Shown one piece after another: positions 11,660 through 61,194 of a stretch of 64,000 nucleotides of DNA. Under the pieces are notes generated by a model that was given only the letters and a program-made list of their open reading frames with translations, was not told the DNA's origin and did not search any database. The translations under genes were made by a program, and so were the position numbers. Each line of letters starts with the position of its first letter. The first letter of the stretch is position 1. The DNA is from Ectobius pallidus (taxonomy: Eukaryota; Arthropoda; Insecta; Blattodea; Ectobiidae): assembly GCA_964059195.1 (NCBI GenBank), contig CAXKWD010000003.1:197432174-197496173 (forward strand), in the 5' to 3' direction.

Positions 11660-12540
11660 AAGTGTATTAAGTGCCAGTATGGTACTCTATGAGATTGTGT
11701 GTGGGGGACGAAAAATGTCTGTCCGTGGGTCTGTACGCACCATAACTCAAATACGATTTATCGAATTTTCATGAAACTTAGTATACTCATTTATAATGTA
11801 CATGGAAAGAACCCTATTGTTATTGAACCAAATCGGTTCACCGGTACCGGCGTAAAACCCAATTAAGTGTTACGCTTTATCGCATTTTCATGAAACTTGG
11901 TATACACATTTATAATGTCGACTGGAAGACGTCTGTTGATATTGGACAAAATCGGTTGGCTGGTACCGGAATAATGCTCAATTTCGTGCATTTTTATGGT
12001 ATTATATAACAAAAGGCCCCATAACGCAGATATGCTTTATAGGATTTTCATGAAACTTGGTATACGCATTTATAACGTCGATGGCAAGAAGCCTATTAAT
12101 TTTGGACTTAATCGGTTGACCGGTACCAGAGTAGCGACTAATTAAAGGTCACATGTTTTTTTTTATTTTTGTCTGCTGGTATAATTTGACAGTTAACACT
12201 ATTCCTTCACTTATATTTGTCAAACGACACCGTCAAGCTCACTGAGTTGGCCAAATGGTAACGCCTTGGACTCGTATTATGGAGGTCCCCGAATCAAATC
12301 CCGGAGTCGGCCGATTTGACATGGATTTTTATTTTATTTCATTTTTTATTTTTATGTGAGTGCGAGATTGTCAAGGTATCACAAATCTGTAGTTCTACTG
12401 ACGCTGGTCGATTTTAATCTGATTAGAAAAACTTATTTTCTGCATATCATAATTGCAATTATAATTGATTCAACAAAAAACAAACTGGCACTTTGTTATA
12501 TCAGTTTACCTGATTTTATGAAAATATATTCAATTTTAAC
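11660..12540 (+). mobile_element. Helentron-like repeat, copy C (three internal units)
   Basis: Starts ATTAAGTGCCAGTATGGTAC at 11669. It has the GTCY core and three tandem ~135-bp units (TTTTCATGAAACTTRGTATA recurs near 11767, 11889 and 12045), then the shared 3' region ending CTGGCACTTTGTTATATCAG and TTTACCTGATTTTA. A tRNA-derived SINE is inserted at about 12224-12367. Confidence 0.8.
12224..12367 (+). mobile_element. tRNA-derived SINE inside Helentron-like copy C
   Basis: The head GAGTTGGCCAAATGGTAACG resembles a tRNA A box, and GAATCAAATCCCGG a B box. It continues into GTCGGCCGATTTGACATGG and a T-rich tail. TTGTCAA occurs at 12217-12223 and 12368-12374, a plausible short target duplication. 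The same family is found inverted at 62.8-62.9 kb. Confidence 0.65.
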
Positions 12541-12832: not shown

Positions 12833-12984
12833 AATAAATTATTTATATGGAATAACATTAAAATACCTTAAAAATTACTATTATCATAGGCAATCCCATG
12901 AGAGTGACGAGTTTATCGATAGATTCGCGACTGCGCAGCAGGAGCGAATTTATCTGATGAAACTCGTCAACTCTAGCTGGAATT

Positions 12985-13515
12985 ATTAAGACAATCCCAT
13001 GAATAAAATGTAAAGGATTATATAAATAATAATTACCTTCGTGTTTTGTTGTATAAAAACAAAACTAACAGTTGTGTGATCACGACATACTGTGAATCAA
13101 CCATCCATGAATCGATTCGAGGTACCTTGATGTCATCAGTGCTACCAATGGCGCATATAAAACATATTTAACTGCATTCGGGTAAGCTAACAGCAGAACA
13201 GAATAAAAGCACACGGACTGGCTTGCACCGAATCGAAATTGTGTTCTTAATCAATGTATATTTCTATTATTTCAATTTCCAAACAAGTTATGTTGTATAA
13301 AATAATCTGTTTTCGTGCCGCTTAGTGGCAGCATCTGACTATTAATGACTGCACACTGATACTCGCGTCTCCAGTAACGAGCAGACGATTTTATCACGAT
13401 AAAATACCCTGCTCGCGATTCCTACAAGAATATTGCAAGATAAACGGCCGTGATTGGTCTATATCCGTGGAATTGCCAAACGTTGTTTGTCAATATCAAA
13501 CACGCGGCGTATGAG
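12985..13515 (-). repeat. Interspersed repeat R2x, copy A
   Basis: Reverse-oriented copy of a repeat that also lies at 29148-29700 and 41453-41990 (+). Shared landmarks are CAACTCATACGCCGCGTG, CCTCGGATATxGACCA, GTTACTGGAGACGCGAG and AATCGATTCATGGATGG. No coding capacity or clear termini; superfamily unknown. Confidence 0.8.
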
Positions 13516-13527
13516 TTGAACAGTCTA

Positions 13528-13740
13528 TATAAAAGGCTTTGTCCTGACTGACTGATTGACAGAGAATCAACGTAGAGCCTAAACTATATTAGGTAGATAT
13601 TTGGAATTTTGACAGTGCTTTCGTTTCATAACGTAAGTGCTGACTAAGAAAGTATTTTGCAAAATTTTGATTTTGATTGTCAAAAGACAAATGTTTCCAA
13701 GGACACGAAATCTTCTATAAGAAACACACGTAGTAGGCTT
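13528..13740 (+). mobile_element. Helitron fragment (5' end)
   Basis: Begins TCTATATAAAAGGCTTTGTC and matches the first ~200 bp of the Helitrons at 57461 and 60385 (GAATCAACGTAGAGCCTAAA follows). The rest of the element is missing. It abuts repeat R2x copy A. Confidence 0.75.
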
Positions 13741-14887: not shown

Positions 14888-16812
14888 GTAATTTTTATTA
14901 AGTGGTACTTTATGAGATTGTGTGGAGGACGTAAAAATGTCTGTCCGTCTGTCCGTGTGTCTGTACGCGTCATATCTCATACGCTTTGTCGGATTTTCAT
15001 AAAATTTGCTGTACGCATTTATAACGTTAATGGGAAGAACCCTATTGTTATTAAAACAAATCGGTTCACCGTAATGCTTAATTCAGTGCCTATTTTAATA
15101 GATTAGCCTATATCAGAAAGGCGCCCTAACTCAAACAAGATTTATCAGATTTTCATGAAACTAGGTATTCGCATTTATGACATCCATGAGAAGTAACCTG
15201 TTCAATTTGGACCTAATCGGTTGACCGGTACCGGAGTAAAACTCAATTTAGTGTCTATTTTGAAGACACGGTAACTCAAATACACTTTATTCAATTTTCA
15301 TAAAACTTTATATACGCATTTATAATGTCCATGGGAAGACTTCTATTGATATTGGTTAAAATCAGTTGACCGGTATCGGAGTAATGCCCAACATGGTTTC
15401 TATTTTATGGTGATATATTATTAAGAATTTAGCAGATGCAAATCTGTTATCCCGACAACATATCGATTTACATACTTCATATACGGCTTTGGAATAGTTA
15501 GCCATGACCACCGCCTCTCGAGAGTTACACGAGTAATACAGTCTAGAAGGAAGTGACCATGACACATCCCTTCGTATTCAAGCTGATACGTACGGTGGTA
15601 ATAACGAAGTAAATTGGAAGATTTAACTATCAAACTATTCCGTGTTTCTTTCGTTCATCAAGTTGAATACCGTTATATACAGAAGATATAAACTCTGAAA
15701 TAATTAGGCCTACATACATTAAGTAGAGTTCTTCGCCTGTGTATTTTGTGAAGTGTTGACATAATTATTTTAAGAATGTCTTATATCAGTGTATACGAGT
15801 TTGAATTAAGTTTAAGTATCAAACTATAGACCTTTATCATTCCATAAGCTCTGCTTAATGAATCGATCTGCAGCTTAACTCGGAAATCGATAACAAAAAA
15901 AATCTGATGTGAAAGTCACATAACTTCCTCTGCCCAAATAAAAGTTAGCAGTATTCACATATCCTTGTACAGAATCGCAAGACACAATTTTACGCTAATT
16001 ATCCTATAAATACCTCTTCTTTCAATGATGCGACTAAAAGCGCAGGCTATATAACAAACTTTAAAAAAAAGAACAAAGACTGCAGACGTTTATTGAACTT
16101 TCCGCCGTAAAATATAATTTCCGAAATTTATCGAATATTTCCCTCAGATACTTCTTTACTCTATGCATGGCCAACAATACATCTTTCTCACTTCACATTC
16201 TTATATAGAATAAGAGGTCGTGAAAGAGCGCGTATTCAGTTGTTCATCACGCAAGACAAACTTTCAACAAACAGTGAGTGAACAGTGGGTGGCTTGTAAC
16301 TACCCTCAGAGAATTTTTTCGAAAAAAAGTTTCAAATAAACATTTTAGCTCTCAGTAAAAGGAACACATGTGCAAATTTTAAAGAAAATCGTTAGAGCCG
16401 TTTTCGAGAAAATCGCGAAAAACGAAAATTTCTTCATGTAAAGTCCCCTTAAAAATAAGAGAAAATAGTCGCCAATCTTATCCTCACATCTTCAGAAGGT
16501 ACCTGGCCCAAATACGAAATTTTGTTTTCATACGATTTTCCGTTTCGGAGCTAGAGTGTTCACAGACAGACAGACACACAGACATGTTTCCAAAAATAGT
16601 ATTTTTGGATTCAGGGGGCCTTGAAACGTGTATATATGCTAAAAACTCAACTTCGAATTTTGGGGTCGAAAACAATACTTCCTCTACCTATAGTACCTAT
16701 GGTACGGGTAGAGGAAGTAATAACTTATTCTCTGCAATTCATAATTCCAATGAACTTTTTACTGATTAAACGAAAGCATACTGGCACTTTGTTACATCAG
16801 TTTACCTGATTT
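14888..16812 (+). mobile_element. Helentron-like repeat, copy D (three units, split by nested insertion)
   Basis: Starts near 14898 (ATTAAGTGGTACTTTATGAG, lacking seven bases of the usual terminus). It has GTCTGTCCGTCTGTCC, three ~138-bp units at about 14960, 15120 and 15260, and the common 3' region up to about 15893. The matching 3' end resumes at about 16717 and closes with CATACTGGCACTTTGTTACA and CAGTTTACCTGATTTT. Confidence 0.8.
15894..16716. mobile_element. Unclassified nested insertion within Helentron-like copy D
   Basis: About 820 bp separates two halves that are contiguous in copies A, G and H. Near its edges ACTTCCTCTGCCC (15924) is inverted as GGGTAGAGGAAGT (16705-16717). The last 45 bp form a hairpin with stem ACTTCCTCTACC. 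It contains the phrase TCGGAGCTAGAGTGTTCACAGACAGACAG. No transposase frame. Family unknown. Confidence 0.6.
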
Positions 16813-25795: not shown

Positions 25796-26893
25796 CAGGG
25801 GAAGTCAACTACGTCTTGTGATGACGTTTGTGGAGCAAGAGCATGCGGATCCCATGTGTGTGACGTCAGTAAGAGCGCACGGTAGTAGGGGTGTTTAGAG
25901 TACGCTAGATTTAGGTACTAGAGGACCTATTCACTTTAGCTCTGTGGGTAGAACAACTTCTGGTTGGAAATACGGAGCATTTTTCAAAGTTAATGCAAGA
26001 TGCGATCCTGATAGTGTTCTCTCTGCAGAACATGTGTTAGTTCTGCAAAACATTCTTCTTCAGTTCGAATCGAGGTTTCAGGATATGGAAAACCTTTCTC
26101 CAATATTTAAACTTTTTGCTACCCCATATTTAGTTAATGTCAAAGACGTTCCTTGCCCGTATCAGTTGGAACTGCTAAACTTACAATGCGACGATCTGTT
26201 AAAGGACAAATACGAACGTAAAGTGGTCTTGGGTAACTTTTACAGAAATTTCTCTGAAACCAGATTCCCGAAACTTGCCGCACGAATATTATGTAATTTT
26301 GGATCGACATATGTGGCCGAACAATTTTTTTCACTAATGAAATGTGCAAAGCTCAAATCAAGAAGTACATTGTCAAATCACAACCTAAATGTAGTCTTCG
26401 ATTAAATATTGCTCAAACATTACGTCCCAACATTGATAAACTTGTTAAAGAAAAAAGAGACAGGAAAGTCAGAAAATTGTTACTGTAATCTTGTATCATC
26501 TAAGGTGCAGACGAGATTGTATGGTAATTAATTCAGTTCATTTTTTTAATTATTTTTATAGTAGTGAATTATGTTAATTCAAATGATAGTATTGTCTATT
26601 TTTGTCAAAGAACATAGATTTTGTGGAAAGGCAATTGTTCTCACAGAATAGAAAACTACTGTGCTGTAATTAACCGATAAACTATCAAGAAAATCGATTG
26701 ATGTTTCATTAACTCGGAAACACGTATTACGTAAGTTCTAACCCCCTAAATTCCCCCTGCCCGCAATACTAATACCCCTCTCTTCCCCCCTGTTCACTGA
26801 TGCCTACATTTCACATACTCCTCGCAGAGGTACAACGCGAGCAGTGAGAGCAGAAAGCAGTGACGTCACAGAGCAACCTTCTGTCTTCCCCTG
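25796..26893 (+). mobile_element. hAT transposon (GTF2IRD2/Charlie-like), deleted, 1,098 bp, perfect 8-bp target duplication
   Basis: Left end CAGGGGAAGTCAACTACG; right end is the inverse of CAGGGGAAGACAGAAGG. GTCTAAAC flanks it exactly at 25788-25795 and 26894-26901. A paralogous copy of the host sequence at 27094-27240 lacks the insertion. The element keeps only the C-terminal part of its transposase, so it is an internal-deletion derivative dependent on an autonomous relative. Confidence 0.92.
25944..26490 (+). pseudogene. hAT transposase C-terminal fragment (dimerisation domain)
   Basis: The open frame (no ATG; it simply enters at the deletion edge) encodes SPIFKLFATPYLVNVKDVP, LELLNLQCDDLLKDK, FPKLAARILCNFGSTYVAEQ and FFSLMKCAKLKSRS. 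This is the hAT C-terminal dimerisation domain in the form found in GTF2IRD2 and related Charlie-family proteins: LQCDxxLKDK, then LAxRxxxxFGSTYxCEQxFSxMK. After NVVFD a stop and frameshift follow, and the remainder (NIDKLVKEKR) is in another frame. The N-terminal BED finger and first catalytic residues are absent. Inactive. Confidence 0.88.
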
Positions 26894-30854: not shown

Positions 30855-33800
30855 TAGTGGGAGTTCCTGAAAACATTGTAAATAGTGTGTTAAGTGCCAA
30901 TTACTGGCCATTAGGAACACTAGTCAAAAAGTTCTATCAGCCTAGAAATGAGCACTCTAAGGTTGACAGCAATGTTTTTTTTAAGAAGAAGTTAAGCACA
31001 AAACTTACTAAAAAAAATGATGGTGAAAAAACTGGTTGTGATGAAGATGACATATTATCTGTATTTCATATAAATATACAAAGCCTAAGGAACAAGATAA
31101 ATGAAATTGAAGCGTTTCTAAATGAAAAAAGGTTTAGTGTACTATGCTTCAGTGAACATTGGTGTACTGGTGATCAGCTAGAGGTTCTTAAACTCAGTGG
31201 ATATACTCTTGCTAACAAATTCTACCATTACGCATGGAGGTGTGTGTGTATATGTCTCCGACTGCATAAAGTGGACTACATTTCCTTCTGAAGAATTAAG
31301 TGCTGAAAAGGACTTTGAAATAACATCTGTTATACTTGAGGATTTACAATATTGTATTACAGTTATATATAGATCTCCCAATAGTGACCTCAATATTTTC
31401 CTAAATAATCTTGATCTTCTTCTGAAGAAAATAACGAACCAATATGCTCATTTCAGATCGATAATATGTGGGGACATAAATATTAATGTTCTAAAAACAG
31501 ATAAGACGGTATTAGACCTCAAAAACCGGTTAAGAAGTTATGGATATTATTGCACTATAGATAAACCAACAAGAAATTTGAACTGTATTGATAATATTAT
31601 GACTAACCTAACTATCAACACATACGTCCCAGATGTCATTGAGCCGGGCTTATTTGATCATATGGGTGTATTTATAGAGTCAAAAGTGGAGGTAGGCCTA
31701 TGTAAAAACAATGATCCTTTCTCAAAGTATATACAAAAACGAATTTTTAACAGTTATGGTGTGCTAGTGTTTTTATCAGTGCTGAATAATATGAACTGGA
31801 ATTCAATAATTTTTACAAATGATGACAAACATCAAAACTTTTACAACAATCCGTTTGATTGTTTTTTAGACTGGTTCTATGATATGTTTAATAAGTTCTT
31901 TCCAATTAAATCTCTTAAGAGATCAGAACGGAGTAAGACATCTAAAGCTGTCACATGGTATAATAATAATCTAAAAACAATGAAGCATAATATGATGGGA
32001 TACCTAACAAAATACAAATGCACTCAAGCTGAGGCAGATAAGACTTCGTACAAGAATAGTCGAATACGATACAAAAGGGCTCTAACTGACGCAAAAAAGG
32101 AAGCAAATGTACGGTATATTCAGAATCCCACAAATAAAACAAAGGCAGCATGGTCTTTAATTAAGACCAATATAGGGGCAGGTAATAGCAAACAAGACAT
32201 GTGTATTCAGCCGAACACTTTTAATAACTATTTCATAGATGCTCCTGGAACCATAATGAAAGGCATACAGAAAACCAACGTCGGTGTGGAAGAACTATTG
32301 TACAACAATCATCAAGCAAACTCTCAGTTCAAATGGCAGCCAGTAACCAGCTCAGAAGTACGTAAGGTGGTACAAAAAATGAAAACATCTCATAGCTGTG
32401 ATTACTATGGCCTGTCTAACTCATTTATGAAATAAATCATTGGCAGCATACTTGAACCTATAACCTATTGTATTAACACATGTATGCAGCAAGGGATATA
32501 TCCAGACAGTCTTAAAATTGCGAAAGTCACACCTATCTATAAGAAAGGTGACAAAGATTTGCCCAGCAATTATCGCCCAATATCAGTGATACCTATATTC
32601 AGTAAAATATTTGAGACTTTGATCAAAAACCAACTAATGGGCTATTTTGAAGACAATAACCTGTTGACAGAAGCACAACATGGTTTCCGTTCGGATCATT
32701 CCACTACTGGTGCAGTGAGTGAACTAGTAAAATATATTTTAAATGCTTTTGAAAACAAAGAACATACAAGAGCTGTTATCTGTGATCTCAGCAAAGCGTT
32801 TGATACAGTAAGCCATGACAATTTAATAACGAAATTGAAATATTACGGAATTAGGGAGAATGAATTAGATGTCCTGGTATCGTACTTAACTGATCGCAGG
32901 CAGGTAGTTCAGATAGAAGACCACATTTCTGACATCAAAGTGGTAGAATTTGGAGTTCCACAGGGATCCGTTATGGGTCCGCCATTATTTTTGATATGCA
33001 TAAATGATCTTTCTTGTAATGTAGCGTGTAAATCGATAAATTTTGCAGATGATACTTGTTTGCTCAACAAAAATAGCACTTTAATAGAGCTGGGAAACTT
33101 AACAGAAGCTTCCATTAAACAATCCAAAGAGTGGTTTGCTGCAAATAACCTGTTTTTAAATTCTTACAAAACTCAGAACATTACATTTAGTCTAAATAAA
33201 TGTGCGGCTAGCTCCAGCAGTGTGAAACTACTGGGTATAGATCTTGACAGTACTTTATCCTGGGATCATCATACTGTCAATCTAAGTAAACGACTCAGTA
33301 GAGTTATTTTTCTACTGAGTAACCTCAAATTCATACTACCTGACCAGTACATAAGAATGTCATACTTTTCATACTTTCACAGTATTATAAAATATGGAAT
33401 TATTTTATGGGGTAATAGCAACGAGACAGAAAAAATCCTAAAACTTCAGAAGAGAATTATAAGAGTCTTATCAAATTCTGATATTAATGCACCGTGTAGG
33501 CCTCTATTCAAACAGCTAAAGATTATGACAGTTGTTAACCTGTACATTCTGGAATTGCTCATACACGTAAAGATGAAGTACTCGTATAATAGCGAAACAT
33601 CTAGAGCCAGTATTCATTCCCATATGACTCGGAACTCACATCAAATTGATCTTCCACAACATAGATTATAAGACAGAGGTAAATTTTGAATATGTGGGTT
33701 TTAAACTATTCAATGCTCTGCCTGAAAACACTGTTAACTTGCCTTTTAACTGTTTTAAGAATAAACTAAAGGGCTGGCTTACATTAAACCCAGTCTATAG

Positions 33801-34069: not shown

Positions 34070-34729
34070 TTATTTTTATTCAAATTTAATTACGAACTCT
34101 CAAAATGCTCTCCTTCTGAGGCTACACATAGGTTCCAACATTCTATCCACTTTTCAAAACATTCAGATAAGCCCTTGTTTGACTCCCTGTTCAATATACC
34201 CGAAATAACACTATTTAGTTCGTTATCGGTTTGAAAATGGTGCCCACGAAGTAATTTTTTCACTCGTGGAAACAGGTAGAAGTTTCAGGGTGCAAGATCC
34301 GGCGAATATGGTGGATGGGGCATGATTTCGATGATTGCCTCTTGTGTTGCTTTGGCTCAATGAGCAGGGGCGTTGTCCTGGTGGAGGATCCACTTTTCTG
34401 TAGCCCAAATGATTACGAATTATGTCTTCAACTGACCCAAACAAAATGTGCATCATGTTTATAATCTTCGCTATTGTTAATCGTCGATCTTCGTGCGGCA
34501 TGGCGTCAATGGTGTTGCCGTTCACCTCAGTTTTTGGTGTGGAGGGCCATCCTTCACGTGGAGCGTCTTCAAGATTTGTTTCACCATCTTTAAATTTCTT
34601 ATGCCATTCAAAAACACGTGTTTTTGATAATTCTTGGTCTCCATATGCTTTCTGTCTCATTTGCAGCGTTTCAGTTCCTGATTTTTTCAGAAAAACACAA
34701 AACCAAATTGACGCTCCATGTTGGGTCAC
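34070..34729 (-). pseudogene. mariner transposase with internal deletion
   Basis: The N-terminal half reads FCVFLKKSGTETLQMRQKAY, KTRVFEWHKKFKDGETNLED and the second helix-turn-helix region to NHLGYRK, as in mariner/GVQW3-type proteins. The sequence then jumps, in another frame, to WILHQDNAPAH (the second catalytic Asp) and PPYSPDLAP (the third Asp), FPRVKKLLRGHHFQTDNEL, and a closing WNLCVASEGEHFES. The first catalytic Asp and its surroundings are deleted, so it cannot be active. Confidence 0.9.
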
Positions 34730-35171
34730 TGAAACACGTGCTTATAAAATGGCTCCCTCAGACAAACTAAACAGCACAAGGTTAGTGTCGCGCATATCCC
34801 AGTATCAGTTAAGGTCAGGCCTCTCCATTACCATAATTGGTGAAATTTGACGCGCGCGTTTAAACAGAAAAAAAATATTCCCGTTTCTTTTTGATACACC
34901 CTCGTATAAGCATATATAATAAACAGAAAAATCAGCCGTTGTATTAGACAGTTAAACATAAGCATTTTAAATTCTAGAATATACAGTATTGTAAATGAGA
35001 TAATACCAAGGCATGTAGTAATACACGACATGGTAATGGAGCATGCCGTAATAAATAAAAAAAGAATCCTTACAGAAGTCACTTGCCAAACTGCGCCACG
35101 TATGTGGTCCACTTAATCTCTGAATTTAACTTGCATGAAAATTACAAACTTTATTAGAAAACAGCAAAGGA

Positions 35172-35380
35172 AAAAGTTATTAAGTGCCAATACGGTACTA
35201 CATGAGATTGTGTGGGAGAGAGGAAATTCCTGTCTGTCTACCAAGGTGCCTGTACGTGCGATAACTCAAATACGCTTTATGGAATTCCGTGAGATTTAGT
35301 ATAGACATTTATAACGTCCATGGAAAGAAGCCTATTCATATTGAACCAATTCGATTGACCGGTACCGGAGTAACGATTAA
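35172..35380 (+). mobile_element. Helentron-like repeat, copy E, left part
   Basis: Starts TTATTAAGTGCCAATACGG, has the GTCTGTCT core and one unit ending ACCGGTACCGGAGTAACGAT. It is interrupted at TTAA by the element at 35381-37735. The right part continues from 37736. Confidence 0.85.
35377..35380. other. TTAA target duplication, left
   Basis: TTAA directly abuts the left terminus TTACACTATGCAACAT; the matching TTAA is at 37736-37739. In intact relatives of the host repeat (e.g. near 12137 and 40182) the same site reads ACTAATTAAAGGTCAC or similar, giving the empty-site reference. Confidence 0.8.
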
Positions 35381-35683
35381 TTACACTATGCAACATTTTA
35401 AAATTTTTGGTATGATGTTTTAAGACTGTAAAGTGATTTTAGAAGTATTTTTCATGCTGATTTTAAATATGATTTTACCTTTGCTGTATCACGTAATTCG
35501 ATTTTGAATTTTTTTTTAATCGAAATTTTTGAACAGGGAAAAATATTGTTCCCGTTTAAGTTATAAATTGTGTAAGTTTTAACTTTGTATTTAATTACAA
35601 TGCACTGCATTACAGTGGAGAATGGTATATACTCTCTTAAAAATGTGATAACTATTACGAAAAAACAACACATATATGGCAAT

Positions 35684-37412
35684 TTACATCCTCTTCTTCG
35701 CTGATTTCACTACTTCAAGATCTTTCTGACGTGGGTTGAAACTTCTCTTCCTCGATTGTCCTCCTTCAGCAGTGCCGTCCCTTTCAAGCATAAAACAGTA
35801 GTCGGCCATCATGTTTGCATTCCATCTTCCCTGGTATCTCTTTTCCATGTCCTTTATGTCCTGGTGAAAACGTTCTCCTTGTTCTTCACTGACATCACCG
35901 AGGTTCGCAGGGAAAAAATCAATATGTGAATGTAGGAAGCGCAGCTTCACACTCATATTACATCCTAATTTCATAAAACTAAGCAACATTTTTTTAACAA
36001 TGGTTTTGTACTTTGGATATTTGTTGTTGCCAAAAAAGTTGCCTACAACTTCTTTAAACGAAACCCAGGCCTTTTTTTCCACAGGATTCATTGTACTTTC
36101 AAACAAATTGTCTTTCATTAACTTTCTGATCTGTGGTCTCACAAAGATCCCTTCTTTCAATTTCTCATAATATACTTTCGGAAATTTTGTTACCAAGTAC
36201 TGGAAGCAGTCACCTTCTTTTGGAAGAGATTTAGTGAACTGCTTCATTAATCCGAGTTTGATGTGCAGAGGAGGTAATAGTATCTTGTTTCGTTGAACGA
36301 GTGGTACATTTATTATGTTCTGTGAACCGGGTTGGAGGGTTTTCCTTTTGGGCCAGTCTGTCTTCTTCCAATGCTTATCTTTGGCTCGACTGTCCCATTC
36401 AAAAATGAGACACGGCATTTTTGTGTAGCCTGATTGTTGACCAAGTAACATGCAAACTACTTTTAAATCTCCACAAATTGTCAAAGAATGTTTTTCATAG
36501 TTTACGTATTTTAGCAGAGCTTTGAGATTTTCATACGTCTCCTTGAGTTGTACTGAATGTGCAATGGGTGTTGAACCAAACAAATTTCCATTATGTAAAA
36601 GTACACCTTTGAGGCTAGTGTTGGACGAGTCTATAAATAACCTCCACTCACTTGGATTGTAAGTGACGTTAAAGAAATTCAATAAACCATCAATATCACA
36701 ACAATAAACCATCAATATCACAACAATAAACCAGAGAGTCTTCTTCTTTAAAGAATTTTATTAATTCCTTCTCTCTGGTCCTATACCAAGAGAACGAAAC
36801 TCCGGGTAGTAGAAGATTTTTTCCTTTTAATCTTGATCCAAGAAATTAGGCGGCATCCTTTGTCAGATTCAAGTCACGAGTTAAATCATTAAGTTCATTT
36901 TGACTAAATAATTTTGGTGCAGAATGTTCTTCCAGCTTGTAATCATCGGAATGATCGCTCTCGTTTTCTGAACTGCTCTCCTGTGGCACATCTTCAAGAA
37001 CGAGAGGTGGAATTGGGATAGGAAGAGATTCACAATGAGTAACTGGCCGTAAGGCCGAAGGAATATTCGGATAATGTATATCCTTCTTACTTTTTGCGTT
37101 ATAACCTTGAACGTTAACCATACAAAAATAATAATCGTTAACATGATTCTGTGGCTCTCTCCAAACCATTGGGATTGCAAAAGGCATTGATTTTTTCGCA
37201 CCATTTTTCCACAGTCTCAGTCCCTCAACACATGTACGACATACCTTGTGCGGTGCCCAGCTTTTGTCTTCATCACCAAGCCTTATACCGAAATATGCAT
37301 AATAGACATTTCTCACAAAACTATTGATGTCTTGTCTTTGCTTAGCAATTACGTAGCTACCACAAATATAACAGAACACGTTTGGGCTATTCAAACACTT
37401 GCGGGAACTCAT
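35684..37412 (-). pseudogene. Candidate transposase of the TTAA element (uncharacterised arthropod family), disrupted
   Basis: N-terminal part, 188 codons from ATG at 37412: CYICG (C14, C17) and HKVCRTC (C58, C61) form a C2...C2 pattern like a ZAD zinc domain, then an acidic Ser-rich linker (SSSENESDHSDD). A TAA at 36846-36848 interrupts. The frame continues with LGSRLKGKNLLLPGVSFSWY until a 22-bp tandem duplication (36687-36708, 36709-36730) shifts it. The remaining 345-codon frame carries EWRLFIDSS (D31), LTICGDLKVVCMLLGQQ (D85), PCLIFEWDSRAKDKHW, KIKLGLM-like PPLHIKLGLMKQF, FLHSHIDFFP and SEEQGERFHQDI (E279-E283), ending in basic NLS-like residues. I recall this SEEQGERFHQDI family as common and uncharacterised in arthropods. 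D...D...E in an RNase H-like fold is my inference from strand-like contexts. Confidence 0.75.
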
Positions 37413-37599
37413 TTCTACAGAAACTTCACAAACTATATGTATGACTCAGCAATATGACATGTTAGCAATGAAGTATTGTTTCCCGCCTAATAGCCAGCTG
37501 GGTGTAATAAGTATGACCAATTGTTCCCTCTTAACAAAATAAAATTCCCCTACCTCGCAATAAAATGTCCCTTTTTTTAAATTTATGTTTAAGTAAAAA

Positions 37600-37713
37600 A
37601 TGAATTCACTTGATTTGCAAAAAAAAACTGTACGTGATAGGAAAAAACGGATTGCTGATCTAGAATCAGCGCAAGAAACTACTTTGGGAACACCTAACAC
37701 TGCAGAGTCATAG
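37600..37713 (+). CDS. Small divergent reading frame inside the TTAA element
   Basis: 37 codons, MNSLDLQKKTVRDRKKRIAD then LESAQETT..., ending at TAG 22 bp from the right terminus. The charged, helix-prone sequence and its placement head-to-head with the large gene (start codons ~190 bp apart) are suggestive, but it may be a chance frame or the truncated start of a second gene. No family recognised. Confidence 0.25.
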   Translation: MNSLDLQKKTVRDRKKRIADLESAQETTLGTPNTAES

Positions 37714-37735
37714 AAAATCATGTTGCATAGTGTTA

Positions 37736-37850
37736 TTAATGGTCACAAGCTTTTTAAAGAAAAATTATCATTATACTACAAAGCCGCGTTGCTAATCACT
37801 GATGTTCTTGACTACAATACAGTCAGATGTTTGTAAATTTATTATATCAC
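37736..37850 (+). mobile_element. Helentron-like repeat, copy E, right part
   Basis: TTAATGGTCACAAGC followed by TACAATACAGTCAGATGTTT parallels the region after the unit array in copy G (40190-40275). The true 3' terminus with CTGGCACTT is not found, so the copy is truncated. Confidence 0.65.
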
Positions 37851-38654: not shown

Positions 38655-39732
38655 TAAAATCAGGTAAACTGATATAACCAAGAGCCAGTATGTTTTCTTA
38701 ATCAGTGATAAACGCAATTATGATAAGCCCATGCAGAAAAGTTATTTTTGTAATAGATCTCCGAGTTAAACTCCAAAAACAAAACGTACTGGCAATAATA
38801 ATAATGATGCAATAGACCTACGATTCGCTGATATCTCTGTTTCAAAGGTTTAAAGGTTACGAATGAATAAAAAGTCAATATAAAATCTATCTGTCAGGAA
38901 TTACATTAGGTATATTGCTGCACAGAAACTAATAAAAAAAATACTCACATTAAAATATAGCCTAATGTAAATATCGGTAGTCTACATAACCATTGAATAC
39001 ACAATATAATATCAATATTCAACGGCTAGCTGTTATAAATAGTTTATTTACATTATTTAAATTATTATTTAGCCCACAGTGACATCGTTATGAAGAAACA
39101 AATCAATCAAGGTTGCTAACAATATCAATATACAATTGGCAATTTCTTACGTTCTTTAATATATTGAGGGCCATGAAAGAATATTCATTACACATTTAAT
39201 ATTGATATACTAGTTATTTCGGTACCGGTCAACCGATTTGGCCGTAACCCAATAGGCCTGTACCCAAGAACGTCATAAATTCGTATACCAAGTTTCATGA
39301 AAATCTGATAAAGCGTATTTAAGTTATCCGCGCATTTGTGATATATTATCATAAAAAGGCACTAAATTGAGCATTATTCCGGTACCGCCCAACCGATTTG
39401 GTCCAATATCAACAGAATTCTTCCCAGGGACATTATAAATTCGTATACCAAGTTTTATGAAAATCCGATAAAGCGTATTTGAGTTATCGCGCCTTTAAAA
39501 TAGACACTAAATTGGGTTTTACTCCGGTCCCGGTCAAACGATTTGGTCCATTATCAATAGGGTTCTTCCCATGAACATTATAAATGTATATACCAAGTTT
39601 CATTAAAATCCGATTAAGCGTACTTGAGTTATCGCGCGTACAGACACGCGGACGGGCGGACGGACGGACGGACAGACAGACATTTTCCCTCCCCACACAC
39701 AATCTCATTAAGTACCATACTGGCACTTAATA
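38655..39732 (-). mobile_element. Helentron-like repeat, copy F (three units), interrupted
   Basis: The 3' end lies at 38655-38766 (AATCAGGTAAACTGATATAA, GAGCCAGTATG). The unit array and 5' end lie at 39205-39732, with three ~140-bp units, a GGAC/GACA core and the terminus CTGGCACTTAATAAC. About 440 bp between the parts is AT-rich and unlike other copies, presumably a further insertion or rearrangement. Confidence 0.7.
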
Positions 39733-39967
39733 ACAATAAGAGATCGACATTAGATAACAGGTGATGCAGAAAGTGTATAGACGTTTGAGCAACGGTTATA
39801 AAGTTTTGTGCGCCTGCCTAAGTTCTCGTCGACATTTTGAATATCCTAGCATATGGGTTTGTAATTTACTTGTCTTAGAGCCTTGTAACCAGTGGCGCAG
39901 TTTGTAGAATGTACCTAACTAATGTTAAAATAATTTCCATTAGCTGTCATCATCATCATAATCACCA

Positions 39968-40632
39968 TTATTAAGTGCCAGTATGGTGCATTATGAGATT
40001 GTGTGGGGGATGGGAAAATGTCTGTCAGTCTGCCTGTCCGCCCATGTGTCTGTACGCGCGGTAATTCAAATACGCTTTACCGGATTTTCGTGAAACTAGG
40101 TATACGCAATATACCTACGTATATGGCAATAAGTCTGTTTATTTTGAAAAAAATAGGTTAATCGGTACCGGAGTAACGACTAATTCAAAGTCACATACTT
40201 TTTAAATGGAAAATCATGACTATAGGCCTACTATAATTCCGCTTCACTCCAATGCAGTCAGATGTTTATTTCGATGTTCAAGTTAATACGAGTACTAAAT
40301 GAATACTCTTATATACAGAAGGTATATTACTGTGAAATAAATAAGCCTACATGCATTAAGCGGAGTTCTTTGCCAGTGCATTTTCTGAAATGTTGACATA
40401 TTTTAAGAAATTATTATATCAGTGCATACGAGTTACGAATTAAGGTTAAGCATCAAACTTTAGGCCTTTATTTTTTCGTAAGCCCTGTTTAATGAATCGA
40501 TCTGGAGCTTACCTCGGAGGTCTATCACAAAATAACTTATTTTCTGCATATCATAATAGCAATTATCACTGATTAAACAATAGCATTCTGGAACTTTGTT
40601 ACATCAGTTAACCTGATTTTATTTTAATATTC
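39968..40632 (+). mobile_element. Helentron-like repeat, copy G (one unit, near complete)
   Basis: TTATTAAGTGCCAGTATGG at the start, GTCY core, one unit with CCGGAGTAACGACTAATTC, the shared 3' region, and CTGGAACTTTGTTACATCAG then TTAACCTGATTTTATTTT at the end. Confidence 0.8.
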
Positions 40633-41452
40633 AATGACAAATAGATTTAAAATCCCTTGAAACAAAATACAAGCAAATTCCATAAGTAAAAGAAAGCCTA
40701 TGGTTAGAAGTAATATCTTGTTTTCCAATCATCTGCATGGCGTGGAGCCCACATCCCTTCCCATGCTTCCAGTTTTAGCCACATAATATTGGTTTGTTCA
40801 GTGTGCGAGATTACTTCCCAAACTGTTTGAATGATTCTAGGTTGTCATGGTAATTAATCCCCAGATGGATGTATGGGGCTTCGCACCGTCATACTGAAAA
40901 TATTCATTAATTAGACTCGTAACATCAAATGGACGCCAAATTCCCTTTCATTAATTACTATCGTAGAAATGAAAAATTGATGTTCATATTGAAGCTGTAG
41001 GATGCTGTAGGTTTCTTCTCTATCAACAAAACCTGATATAATGCATCTATACAGCCGTATCCACCCTTCACGTTGAGACATAGCGTAAGCATCACATTGC
41101 AGAAGTACTCATTCAATTGTTCAGGCATCATCTACAATAGAGCCTATTATTCGGGAGCCAATACTAAATAAGTGGTGCTAAAGATCTGCACATTCTTTCC
41201 CAAAATTTCATGTAAACTACCTACTTCCTACTACCTTCTACTTCATGACAAAAAAATTCGTATACAGTTCTCCTATAATGGTAATTAAGATGCTGGTATG
41301 AAAAATATGCAAATAGTTTTACTCGTATATTCATTGTAGCATTGCATCACTATAGGCTTTATTAGGCTATAGAGCTCATTTAGCTCAACAACATGGTATA
41401 CAAAACGGCTTTTTAAAATCACATTTTGCCCCTGAGGTAAAACTTTAAGTGA
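40633..41452. other. Intergenic; possible decayed coding sequence on the reverse strand
   Basis: The reverse strand of ~40850-41110 has broken protein-like stretches (MSQREGWIRLYRCI, then YDGAKPHTSIWGLI in another frame) reminiscent of transposase debris. I cannot assign a family. Confidence 0.3.
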
Positions 41453-41988
41453 CTATTCCACTCATATGCCGCGTGTTTGAGATTGACCAATAACGTTTAG
41501 CAATTCCTCGGATACAGACCAGTCATGACCATTTATCTTATAATATCCTTCCTCGGATCGCAAGGAGGCAAATTTATCTGATAAAACGTAAGCCCGTTAC
41601 TGGACACGTAAGGAATCAACATGTGGTGATTAATACGTCACATGCTGCCAATAAGCAGAATGAAAGCACAGTATTTAACACAACATAACTTGTTTGGAAA
41701 TCGAAATAATATAAATGAAAATTTATTAAAAACATAATTTCGATTCGGATTTTTGATGTAAGCAACTACCACGACGTCCTCAAATTGTGATGCGCTCTAT
41801 TGGTAGCACTGGGAACTCGGATCGATTCATCGAATCGATTCATGAACTGTTCATTCATGTAGTATGCCTTGTTCTTATAGCTGACAGAATACTAACAACA
41901 TAGTAAGAAGATAAATGTTATTTACAAAACCCGTTACATTTTAATCATGGAATAGTCTTAATATATCCTACACGATGTTACTTATGAT

Positions 41989-42473
41989 CAGGCTTTAAAA
42001 CTTAGTGCCCGATCGAATATGTTAACAGCAACTGTACTGTACAGACTTTGCTCGGCGTATGCGCTAGCTACTATATACTAGTTCACGTGATAGTAAACAA
42101 ACCGGATTACATGTATAGGAAGACCACAAAATAACTTCTCATTCTCTAAACTCACATTACAAGCATGCAAAACGATACGTTCTCCTGTTTTTGTGTAATA
42201 GTCCCTCCCAAATGTTTCAATATATGTTTGCGTTTTAGAACACTTTACTTTGGGTATTCCGAACACGTATTATACATTTATAAACACGCATGATGACAAG
42301 GAACACTGTTGACCAATTTGAGAGGCACCGTACTACCAGCGCATTGACTTCTCAGTACTACTATCAATGACTGTCTTATCAGCATACGCAATCATCCCCA
42401 CCCCCTATACTCAGGTTGTTGGTAACCGGAATCATCTCCCTCTGTGGGTTCGGGCACTAAGTTTTAAAGCCTG
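41989..42473 (-). mobile_element. hAT transposon, 485 bp, perfect 8-bp target duplication
   Basis: Both ends start CAGGCTTTAAAACTTAGTGC and match over 24 bases. CTTATGAT flanks it at 41981-41988 and 42474-42481 without mismatch. It keeps only a short N-terminal coding remnant, so it is a deletion derivative. Confidence 0.92.
42078..42266 (-). pseudogene. CGGBP1-like / BED-type zinc-finger remnant
   Basis: The reverse frame reads KTQTYIETFGRDYYTKTGER then HACNVSLENEKLF and PIHVIR. This resembles the DNA-binding N-terminus shared by CGGBP1 and the hAT transposases it derives from: FGxDxxTxxG, LFCxxCNVxxxxEKxF, HxxxxxH. The first cysteine of the LFCxxC pair is lost (IVLHAC) and the final histidine pair is degraded, so it is probably non-functional. 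Its position inside a bona fide hAT supports the assignment. Confidence 0.55.
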
Positions 42474-42500
42474 CTTATGATAAACAAATAGGTTGTAGAA

Positions 42501-43960
42501 CATTATACGTTCATATGATACATTACGGTTAATCTTCCGTCAAACTATAATACCTGTTTCGCTGAATATCCTTGGATGTACTTCATCAATTCAATTTCAA
42601 TATTATGGTTAAGGAAATATTATAGACATAATAGAAACATACATTTCAAAAATGTCCACTACTTTTTTGTCTCACTAGAGTGTTGGGCAATGTTTCTTCC
42701 AGTATCTACTACTTCTAATCTTTGATGCCAGGCTTAATCAGACTCATTTCCTAACACAGACGACTTTGCTCTGGTTTTTCATTTTATCAAATATTTGATA
42801 ACATCATACACATATAGGTCAAATATTAAAATAACACTTTAAAAATGAGCAAATAGATTCAAACTCGGGAAGAACGTAAGGCACATCAACAATCCAAATA
42901 CGGTTACCTCCTCGTGATGTTTCTAGGATAAGGCTAAAAACGAGCAAAGTACTTTTTCACCTGTGCAAAGGACGGGTAACTGGCTAGTACAGTAAATGCC
43001 GCTTAATGTAATAGGGGATAATGTTATCAGCCTGGTAATATTATCACTTTTAAGAAGTCATGTACGGATTAATACTGGTACATTGAAGAAATGCTGTTGA
43101 TTGTGATCAAAGATTCTGTTTCTGTTATCACATTTTCGTTTTTGGGGCTTTATTTCAAAGTATTGTACGTCACTCAAAATTTCGTTTTTAAGGGTTTCAT
43201 TTATAACTCAACTGTATTGTGTTGTACTGTTCCCAGCTCACAGGATGACCAGTTCGAAGGGGGGGTTGCATTACCTAACTTTCTCTTTTAAGCAATAAAA
43301 CATGTTCCACTCATCAGTTAAGCTGCAGCTTTTGATTTATGAAGATAACAGTATTGCCATGCACTGATGGCTAGTGTAAAATGAAAACTTGAACAGACTG
43401 GCGTTAGATCGTTTGCTGTGCAGTGTTCACCACAGATCAGCATAGCTATCCAAAAACACTCGTAATTCATAACTGAGTATGGAGCACTGGTTAGTATACC
43501 ACTAAAGTAAAATAAAAACAATTAAAAACTTTGTTCCTGGTTGAGAAAATAGTTGCTTGCAGTCTATTAGTGTATTAGCCTATGAGTGGTTCAGTGATTC
43601 ACAGTTATGTATATTTTTTTTATGAATAAATGAGTTTTGTTTCTGTTTTGTAGTGTATTATCTTACATACGAATGAATAATCTTCAATTTATTCTTTCTG
43701 CTACTGTTATCAGTCGGTTATTATTATCAGACTAGCTGCATCCCGAAGTGATCATAATAAGCGGCGTGCACGGTGTATTTATAAAATTACAAGAAAGGGA
43801 GTTAATATTTAAGACAATAATTTCATAACGTAGCTGATTATTAATTGTTCTCCACACACAATTTTGTGGAGGCCTAACTACAATTACGATCTAATAAGTT
43901 CTTCTTAAATTAAATAGATCAAGAGTCTTATGCTCGAAATAACATTTTATAATAATAATA
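42501..43960. other. Intergenic, nothing recognised
   Basis: Several small frames (43091-43291, 43318-43521) without recognisable domains; no repeat edges found. Confidence 0.45.
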
Positions 43961-44685
43961 AAATCAGGTCAACTGATATAACAAAGTGCCAGAATGCTTT
44001 TGTTTAATCAGTGATAAATTAATTGCAATTATGATATACAGAAAATAAGTTATTTTTGTAATCTGTCTCCGAATTAAGCTGCAGATCGATTCATTAAGCA
44101 GGACTTGTGGAAGAACAAAGGTCTGACGTTTGATGCTTAACCTTAATTCATACTCGTGTACACTGATATAAGACATTCTTAAAATATGTCACAAACGAAG
44201 AACTCCACTTAATGTACGTAGGCCTAATTATTTCACAGTAATATATCTTCTGTATATAACAGTATTCAACTTGATCAACGAAATAAACATCTGACTAGTT
44301 TGATAATCAATTGCGAAAGGATATGTCATGGCTAACTGTTTTGCAAATTCAAAAGCTGTATATGAACAGTGTATAACATAGCCTATGTTGTCAGGATGAC
44401 CGATTTGCATTTGTTAAATTCTTTATAATTTATTACCATAAAAAAGGCACTAAATTGGGCATTACTCCGATACCGGTCAACCGATTTGGTCCAATATCAA
44501 TAGACTTCTTTCCATGGACATTATGAATGCGTGTACCAAGTTTCATGAAAATCCGATTAAGCGTACTTGAGTTATCGCGCGTGCAGACACACGAATGGAC
44601 AGACGGGGCGACGGAAGGACGGACGGACAGACGGACAGATATTCTCCCGTCCCCCACACAATCTCACAAAGTATCATACTGGCAC

Positions 44686-44692
<7 letters not shown>
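43961..44692 (-). mobile_element. Helentron-like repeat, copy H (complete, one unit)
   Basis: The most complete copy. 3' end AATCAGGTCAACTGATATAA with subterminal AAGTGCCAGAATG, and 5' end CATACTGGCACTTAAT, giving the inverted 13-bp pair. One unit and a GACA/GGAC core lie between. The 5' end runs straight into an AAT array. Confidence 0.82.

Positions 44693-44752
<60 letters not shown>
44689..44752. repeat. (AAT)n microsatellite abutting Helentron-like 5' end
   Basis: About 21 AAT units beginning in the element's own terminal ...ACTTAAT. Responsible for poly-Ile and poly-Leu artefact frames. Confidence 0.95.
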
Positions 44753-57460: not shown

Positions 57461-58258
57461 TCTCTCTATATATAAAAGGCTTTGTTCTGATTGACTGACT
57501 TCATGAGAGAGAATCAACGTAGGGCCTAAACTATATTAGGTAGAGACTTGGAATTTGGACAGATTCTTCGTTTCATAATGTAAATGCTCACTAAGAAAGG
57601 ATTTTTGCAAAATTTTGATTTTAAATGCAAAATCAAATGTTTTTTAGAAAACTTAATCCCTTTTTATACAGAATTATGAAATCAAAATCACAGTTCACAT
57701 GACAACATATTGTTGCCAGTGGTCTCAGATGGTTTTGGAAATAAATGAAATGGGACTGTAACAAATTAGAGAAGCTCTCAATATAATTCATGTTATAAAT
57801 ACATATTAAAGAATGAAATCCACGAAAATAATGCAGTCACATAACTTTCTCTACCCTGGAAATAGAGAAAACAATAAGAGGTATGATAATAGGCCTATGT
57901 TTTGAGAAGAGAAATATGAAAGTGATATTGCATTTCTGTTTAATTTCATCCCCAAAACGGTTTTATAGTAACATGAGAGTGAGAAATAAATATTCCACAA
58001 AGACAATACAATTTTATGTTACCGGAATTTCTGTTTCTTCTTATTTGATCCCCTACCAGGCTTGCTGTGTAGGCTACCGTACAAACGATGGGATGCAAAA
58101 TTGTACATCCTCTATGAGCCATTAAAAGGTATAGGCTATCAAGCATTATCTGAGGGAATTTTTTTAGTGTGATAAATCGTTCTTCCTATTTGAAATTATA
58201 AATACCTACATAAGGACCTAGAATTTAAAAATCGAAAGTCCTTCATAAGTTAAGCTAG
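57461..58258 (+). mobile_element. Non-autonomous Helitron, 798 bp, 3' hairpin deleted
   Basis: Starts TCTCTCTATATATAAAAGGC after an A and ends AAGCTAG before a T, the expected A|T insertion context with 5' TC and 3' CTAG. It aligns throughout with 60385-61194, but the 46 bp holding the 3' hairpin are missing between two TTAA tetramers. No Rep/helicase gene. Confidence 0.85.
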
Positions 58259-60384: not shown

Positions 60385-61194
60385 TCTCTTCTCTATATAT
60401 ATATAAAAGACTTTGTCCTGACTGACAGGAATCAACGTAGAGCCTAAACTATAACAGGTAGAGACTTGGAATTTTGACAGTACCTTCGTTTCATAATGTA
60501 GGTGCTCACTAAGAAAGGATTTTGAAAAATTCTTATTCTAAATGCCAAAAATGAAATGTTTTTGAAAATACTTAATCCCTTTTTACATAGAATTATCAAT
60601 TCCAAATCACAGAATATATTGTTGCCAAATGGTATCAGATGGGCTTGGAAAAAACAAATGAAATGCACTTTTGACAAATAAGAGAAGTTATCAAAATAGT
60701 TCATGTTATAAATAAATATTACAGAATGAAATCCACTAAAATAATGGAATCACATAACTTTCTCTACCCTGGACATGGAGAAAACAAAACGAGGTATGGT
60801 AATGTGTATATTATTATATTATATCGCAGGTTTTTGGAGAGAAAAGTATGAAAGTGATAATGCTTTCTATTTAATTTCATCCCCAAAACGGCTTTATGGT
60901 AACATAAGAGGGGGAAATTTCCGGCCTCGATATTACAATTTTATGTTACAGGAATTTCTGTTTCTTCTTATTTAAACCTCTACCAGGCTTGCTGTGCACT
61001 GTACAAGCGATGGGATTCAAAATTCTAGATCCTCTATGAGCCATAAAAAACTATATCAAGCGTTTTCTGAGGGAATAGTTTGAGTGTAATAAATGCCTAT
61101 ATAAGGACCTAGAATTTAAAATTGAAAATCCTTCATAAGTTAATTTCCAATTACAAAATACAAAACCCGGGCAACGCCGGGTCTTTTAAGCTAG
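60385..61194 (+). mobile_element. Non-autonomous Helitron, 810 bp, complete
   Basis: 5' TCTCTTCTCTATATATATAT after A (60384); 3' hairpin CCCGGGCAACGCCGGG (stems 61166-61170 and 61177-61181), nine bases, then CTAG before T (61195). These are the three Helitron hallmarks. No Rep/helicase gene, so mobilised in trans. Related copies at 57461 and 13528. Confidence 0.92.

Follow-up and report, generated by a model that had tools for sequence, protein, structure and literature searches.

Chapaev elements, which belong with CACTA/EnSpm and Mirage to the CMC group of DNA transposons, invariably have the ends 5′-CAC/GTG-3′, and those of the Chapaev3 kind duplicate TWA and insert between an A and a T, as described in the available part of PMC4079192. 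According to the same partial text (PMC4079192), the insect Chapaev3 element Garfield_BM is 2,289 bp long and encodes a transposase of 556 aa, most Chapaev3 genes appear to have a single exon, and the proteins carry the motifs C(2)C, LH, and H(4)H. The passages available from PMC4411706 describe Chapaev3 as only distantly related to the other Chapaevs and the Chapa zinc finger as common to Chapaev, Chapaev3, TransibSU, and RAG1. In the wider CMCT clade, which includes RAG1, the motifs C(2)C and H(3-4)H between the second D and the E are common property (PMC12730594, in the part available), and the Pfam family PF06918 (DUF1280) is assigned to Chapaev transposases in the portion of PMC3985635 at hand.

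The window, by which we mean the whole analyzed stretch of 64,000 nucleotides from Ectobius pallidus, contains a degenerate DNA transposon copy that we assign, with a probability of about 0.96, to Chapaev3 (Table 1). This name is given on the strength of the ends, the target site duplication (TSD), the size, and the motifs, compared with the published description of Chapaev3. The element is an ordinary decayed member of a transposon kind that was known from animals before and is distantly related to the RAG1 recombinase, and not a new TTAA-targeting element. The original prediction for this locus had chosen well in its acidic residues and in guessing at a transposase, and had been wrong about the superfamily.

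Table 1. Features of the element and of its insertion site in the window. Residue numbers are those of P0001, an intact 567-aa relative.
Feature	Coordinates	Strand	Basis
Element assigned to Chapaev3	35384..37732 (2,349 bp)	- (coding strand)	ends set by 29/30 genomic loci
5′ terminal inverted repeat (TIR), 13 bp, CACTATGCAACAT, end distal to gene start	35384..35396	+	13/13 identical to other end; exact in 29/29 copies
3′ TIR, 13 bp, CACTATGCAACAT, gene-start end	37720..37732	-	13/13 identical to other end; exact in 27/29 copies
TSD, TTA, with A before it at 35380	35381..35383	.	TWA in 27/29 copies
TSD, TTA, with T after it at 37736	37733..37735	.	TWA in 27/29 copies
Older dispersed repeat hosting the insertion, left part	35174..35380	+	paralogous copies in window
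Transposase pseudogene, no intron seen	35684..37412	-	tblastn against P0001, two frames
N-terminal Cys-rich zinc-finger region (Chapa/ZAD-like)	37083..37412	-	C14-C17, C58-C61, C94-C97
Codon for D254, presumed to be the first catalytic Asp (D31 of the original prediction)	36629..36631	-	D in 161/161 homologues
Codon for D308, presumed to be the second catalytic Asp (D85 of the original prediction)	36467..36469	-	D in 161/161 homologues
Codon of candidate catalytic Glu (E502; E505 three codons on)	35882..35884	-	E502 in 160/160, E505 in 159/160 homologues
In-frame stop at residue 189	36846..36848	-	tblastn alignment to P0001
22-bp tandem duplication at the frame shift	36680..36723	-	exact duplication in 1/29 copies, window copy only

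The element has at least 47 matches, fragments among them, in the source genome (2.12 Gb in 410 contigs), a count that is a lower bound with 40 of 751 candidates scored. We fetched 30 loci, all near full length and all aligning from the first bases of the element to position 2345 or beyond, gene included; one of them, L016, has no 3′ end. Identity to the window copy is 93-96% for the remaining 29 loci, and gap-free divergence among the copies averages 2.1% (0.5 to 3.0%; 2.5% for the window copy). Beside the ends of the 29 two-ended copies, a perfect 3-bp duplication is found 27 times (16 TTA, 11 TAA) and a 4-bp match never, with L021 and L024 showing no matching duplication beside their ends as found. 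An A precedes the duplication in 28 copies, a T follows it in 27, and 26 have both. An exact genome search for TWA joined to the 5′ end returned 49 matches, against 0 for the backwards control; this search counts ends and is no test of TWA, because TWA was part of the pattern. Thus, the element ends are certain from the comparison of many copies.

The inverted ends themselves are also real within the window, where 24 of 27 positions are complementary between 35370-35396 and 37720-37746. Such a pair is not rare evidence here, because the window contains 47 exact inverted 14-mer pairs with 0.5-6 kb between their members. Of these pairs, 20 consist of TTA/TAA microsatellite, and, by hand count, 20 of the 47 reach a complexity of at least 1.7 bits, the mean over 20 simulations being 1.35. 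It is the genomic copies with shared ends that bear out the idea of a TIR transposon. The further expectation that copies across the genome would have in common both their ends and TTAA flanks held for the ends (29 of 30 loci) and failed for the flanks, as detailed below. An open frame of at least 550 aa survives in 1 of the 29 copies, and we infer a fairly recent, modest burst of copies that are now mostly dead. Elsewhere in the source genome, a diverged relative at C3:143655924-143657430 (80-84% identity over two stretches) suggests an older lineage in the same genome.

The gene had been described as lying in two parts on the reverse strand, and the two pieces (stop-to-stop frames 37445-36846 and 36757-35684) do together align with residues 1-566 of P0001 at 89-90% identity. 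The window copy is dead, because it has an in-frame stop, a 22-bp duplication that shifts the frame, and, in the alignment to P0001, losses of three conserved Cys/His residues, C94 (now Tyr), C330, and H483.

We counted conservation over 161 homologues of at least 480 aa, taken from 182 family members returned and leaving out the 21 shorter ones, and used two alignments with 14 sequences in common, A1 (41 sequences, lowest pairwise identity 45%) and A2 (77 sequences). The residues singled out earlier map onto P0001 as follows: D31 to D254, D85 to D308, and E280/E283 to E502/E505. With D254 and D308 identical in 161/161 homologues, E502 in 160/160, and E505 in 159/160, these acids are very likely catalytic. 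C327, C330, H340, H376, H483, and H488 are likewise identical in 161/161, while L375 is invariant in A1 and its equivalent position invariant in A2. Between the second D and the last E, the family therefore has C(2)C (C327/C330), LH (L375-H376), and H(4)H (H483/H488), the motifs reported for Chapaev3 in the available text of PMC4079192. The combination of C(2)C and H(3-4)H in this interval is also shared with CACTA/EnSpm, Mirage, Chapaev, Transib, and RAG1, as the available part of PMC12730594 describes them.

The original prediction had read a Cys/His insertion after the second D as hAT-like. The Cys/His context is indeed conserved, but the motif set is that of CMC transposases and RAG1. The C/DxxH motif of hAT, P, MuDR, Kolobok, and Dada was considered and rejected: read by eye, uncounted, off the A1 consensus and rows, the invariant His 340, 376, 483, and 488 as a rule have no C or D three residues before them (PPLH at His 376). 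Chou-Fasman propensities, averaged over the alignment, put strands before D254 and D308 and a helix over much of 499-516, a weak pattern that is compatible with the RNase H order. Points of difference from the CMCT clade are a spacing of 54 residues between the two D residues (D254-D308) and the outcome of PDB searches with the family profiles, in which no chain with a transposase core matched at E up to 10. D308 and C327 are separated by 19 residues, the same spacing as between D708 and C727 of RAG1.

The element resembles the Chapaev3 elements Merrow, Garfield, and Conan in its CAC..GTG ends and in a TWA duplication set between A and T, and full-length Garfield and Merrow elements measure 2,289-2,455 bp and encode 556-562 aa, compared with 2,349 bp and ~567 aa here (available part of PMC4079192). 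It agrees as well with the CMCT clade, most members of which have CA..TG ends and whose TSDs are 2-5 bp long (available part of PMC12730594). Unlike Merrow and Garfield, which have two exons in the part of PMC4079192 at hand, the window element has no intron that we could see, which agrees with the single exon of most Chapaev3 genes. Ends, TSD, length, and motifs all match published Chapaev3 elements, and the statement of the original prediction that the family is uncharacterized is not supported.

The nearest alternative is a CMC lineage close to Repbase Chapaev3 and outside it, for example a sister lineage with the same TWA rule. In its favor, no Pfam transposase family matched the window gene pieces or the 41 members of A1. 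However, the element has the ends, TSD, A/T flanks, size, and motifs published for Chapaev3, and the length of the empty sites is the sole hallmark that is not clean, so that we consider a sister lineage very unlikely. PF06918, in particular, matched 0/41 A1 members and, for A2, was absent among the best 25 of 35 families; this agrees with the distant kinship of Chapaev3 and Chapaev and is not positive support.

Less probable still, to the point of being hardly credible, is the superfamily placement first proposed, a TTAA-targeting element (piggyBac/Kolobok-like or of a new TTAA superfamily) with the TIR TTACACTATG.. between TTAA flanks. The window itself invites it, as literal TTAA stands beside both ends at 35377-35380 and 37736-37739 and the 16-bp ends match at 15/16 positions; the interval proposed for the element, 35381-37735, is exactly the Chapaev3 element plus both 3-bp duplications. 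In the genome, however, TTAA occupies the proposed position on both sides in 2 of the 29 copies (the window copy and L006), on the left side in 8, and on the right side in 4, and with TTA or TAA as the duplicated bases in 27, this multi-copy flank test refutes TTAA as the TSD. Unlike piggyBac and Kolobok, which duplicate TTAA, the element has a TWA duplication and CAC/GTG ends, and its protein carries CMC-type motifs instead of the Kolobok signature C/DxxH. That TTAA stands beside the ends of the window copy is a coincidence in an AT-rich target, and a supposed new TTAA superfamily is removed.

The insertion site gives a less tidy picture. The joined flanks of the element align across the junction with three empty copies of the host repeat in the window (near 40180, 12138, and 1433), in which the anchor ACGA stands 9 bp from the anchor GGTCACA (AGTCACA in one of the three). 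The spacing predicted is 12 bp under a TTA duplication and 5 bp under a TTAA duplication. Neither fits, so an indel in the target copy in the window is needed: a 3-bp gain has to be assumed for TTA, and a 4-bp deletion relative to the three empty paralogues would be needed for TTAA. By empty-site length alone, a duplication of 6, 4, or 2 bp fits better than one of 3 bp. Because the three empty sites in the window could not decide, the size of the TSD was decided by the other genomic copies alone.

The host repeat is older and dispersed through the window in many copies on both strands (430-1650, 11660-12160, 14900-15420, 35170-35380, 39210-40230, and 43940-44710). By eye, it has internal tandem units ~120-160 bp apart with the common core CCGGTACCGGAGTAA. 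Copies face each other around 39949-44711, with 4.6 kb between the outer arms.

The zf-AD-like N-terminus of the protein, which resembles a host transcription-factor domain, might suggest that the element carries this protein as a host gene or cargo and is moved by some other protein, but this is exceedingly improbable given that the frames of at least 100 aa inside the element are the two gene pieces plus one antisense and one other-frame ORF that both overlap them, that 30/30 fetched loci carry the gene, and that its DDE-type residues are invariant. The only gene seen in the element thus looks like its transposase, as the original prediction had guessed.

The protein database returned 3,128 family matches, with a precomputed Pfam domain in 0 of the 120 matches listed, and the named sources among the matches listed include Trichinella and ants. 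Many unnamed family proteins can now probably be called Chapaev3 transposases. No homologue turned up in viral, prokaryote, phage, and plasmid collections, in a search that was partly by short peptide patterns and to that extent insensitive. One viral contig (L001) with the 5′-end motif has no second end within 7.7 kb, and the motif was taken as a chance occurrence. Four peptide words of the family were not found in paper texts, and one of six words from the end sequence occurred in each of four papers, which are off transposon topics as far as their titles and abstract openings tell.

The N-terminal region is rich in conserved cysteines (C14 in 140/140 homologues, C17 in 143/143, C58 and C61 in 152/152, C94 in 160/160, and C97 in 158/160). 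Its multi-cysteine pattern lies in the N-terminal place expected of the Chapa zinc finger (available passages of PMC4411706), with weak E-values to RAG1. The Pfam family zf-AD (PF07776), the ZAD of insect ZAD-C2H2 transcription factors, matches the first two Cys pairs (C-x2-C ... C-x2-C) in register, over profile positions 2-60 of 75 in the best cases. With E up to 10, zf-AD matches 26/41 members of A1, and the runner-up family 2/41; with E up to 1, it matches 46/77 members of A2 (best 7.4e-6), and the runner-up 5/77. Further matches in A2 included RAG1_imp_bd (4/77, best 0.011) and FYVE (4/77, best 0.18). The record of one homologue in the protein database, P0125, lists PF07776. The N-terminal piece of the window copy gave no zf-AD match at E up to 1, and the best whole-protein zf-AD score is 26.6, under the Pfam gathering cut-off of 28 bits. 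Unlike the ZAD-C2H2 factors, the family has no run of C2H2 fingers that we could see, apart from one weak zf-C2H2_12 match (E 0.011, 1/77).

Among 14 N-terminal pieces that were picked by hand, partly for existing zf-AD hits, 13 match zf-AD (best E 3e-7). Their profile gave four matches at E up to 10 among 177,635 PDB sequences; one is a ZAD domain (0.061) and the other three are RAG1 chains (0.14, 0.30, and 0.31), none significant alone. In two PDB searches with whole-protein profiles, a ZAD chain came first of three (0.63) and second of four (0.52), a FYVE-domain chain scored 0.91 and 0.34, and RAG1 appeared at just 2.2, in the second; these ranks count against homology with ZAD and RAG1. 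We also compared the ZAD and RAG1 pieces with shuffled sequences (2000 shuffles made per set), using a profile of 137 of the 161 members, those that fit an imposed cysteine pattern. The 17.5 bits of the ZAD piece were reached by 0/1967 scored shuffles, by 0/2000 with Cys fixed, and by 6/2000 with C, H, W, and P fixed; the 16.3 bits of the RAG1 piece were reached by 1/1955, 6/1999, and 15/2000, respectively. Much of the signal in these comparisons comes from the cysteine pattern.

It is thus a tentative and rather doubtful proposal that a single homologous module is present in the N-terminal finger of Chapaev3, in the zinc region at the N-terminus of RAG1, and in the insect ZAD. The Chapaev3-RAG1 half of this link is already known, because the shared Chapa finger is stated in the available part of PMC4411706. 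A literature search that included the available parts of PMC7655104, PMC9822104, PMC9810180, PMC8576890, and PMC4411706 found no link of ZAD with Chapaev or RAG1, which is no proof of absence in print, and a ZAD query of the protein database gave two short proteins and no lead. If the proposal were true, the most abundant class of insect transcription factors and the V(D)J recombinase would share one domain, which CMC/Transib-type transposons would either have distributed or have acquired from a ZAD gene of a host. It would also provide a testable origin, with ties to RAG1, for the domain that marks a very large family of insect transcription factors.

By analogy with its family, the element may move as follows. 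Its one gene would encode a transposase of ~567 aa that combines an N-terminal zinc finger with a core of probable RNase H-like DDE fold, in which C327/C330 and H483/H488 are the presumed zinc ligands. The finger would recognize, hold, or help bind the 13-bp ends, and the DDE core would cut the element at its CAC/GTG ends. In such a cut-and-paste scheme, the excised element would then be joined to a 3-bp staggered cut in A-TWA-T, which would produce the TWA duplication.

The surrounding window contains further mobile DNA. A non-LTR retrotransposon remnant at 31182-33671 consists of an endonuclease-like ORF, to which Exo_endo_phos_2 gave a weak match below cut-off (E 0.0067), and, immediately after it, a reverse-transcriptase ORF (RVT_1, E 5.6e-31). 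A mariner/Mos1-type transposase fragment lies at 34223-34741 (HTH_48, E 0.0024, below the Pfam cut-off), and an ORF at 25899-26405 looks by eye like the C-terminal region of a hAT transposase, with no Pfam match at E up to 0.01. Two long repeat pairs were also seen, 57461-58253 with 60392-61143 at 77% identity and 12975-13533 with 29696-29135 at 83% identity.
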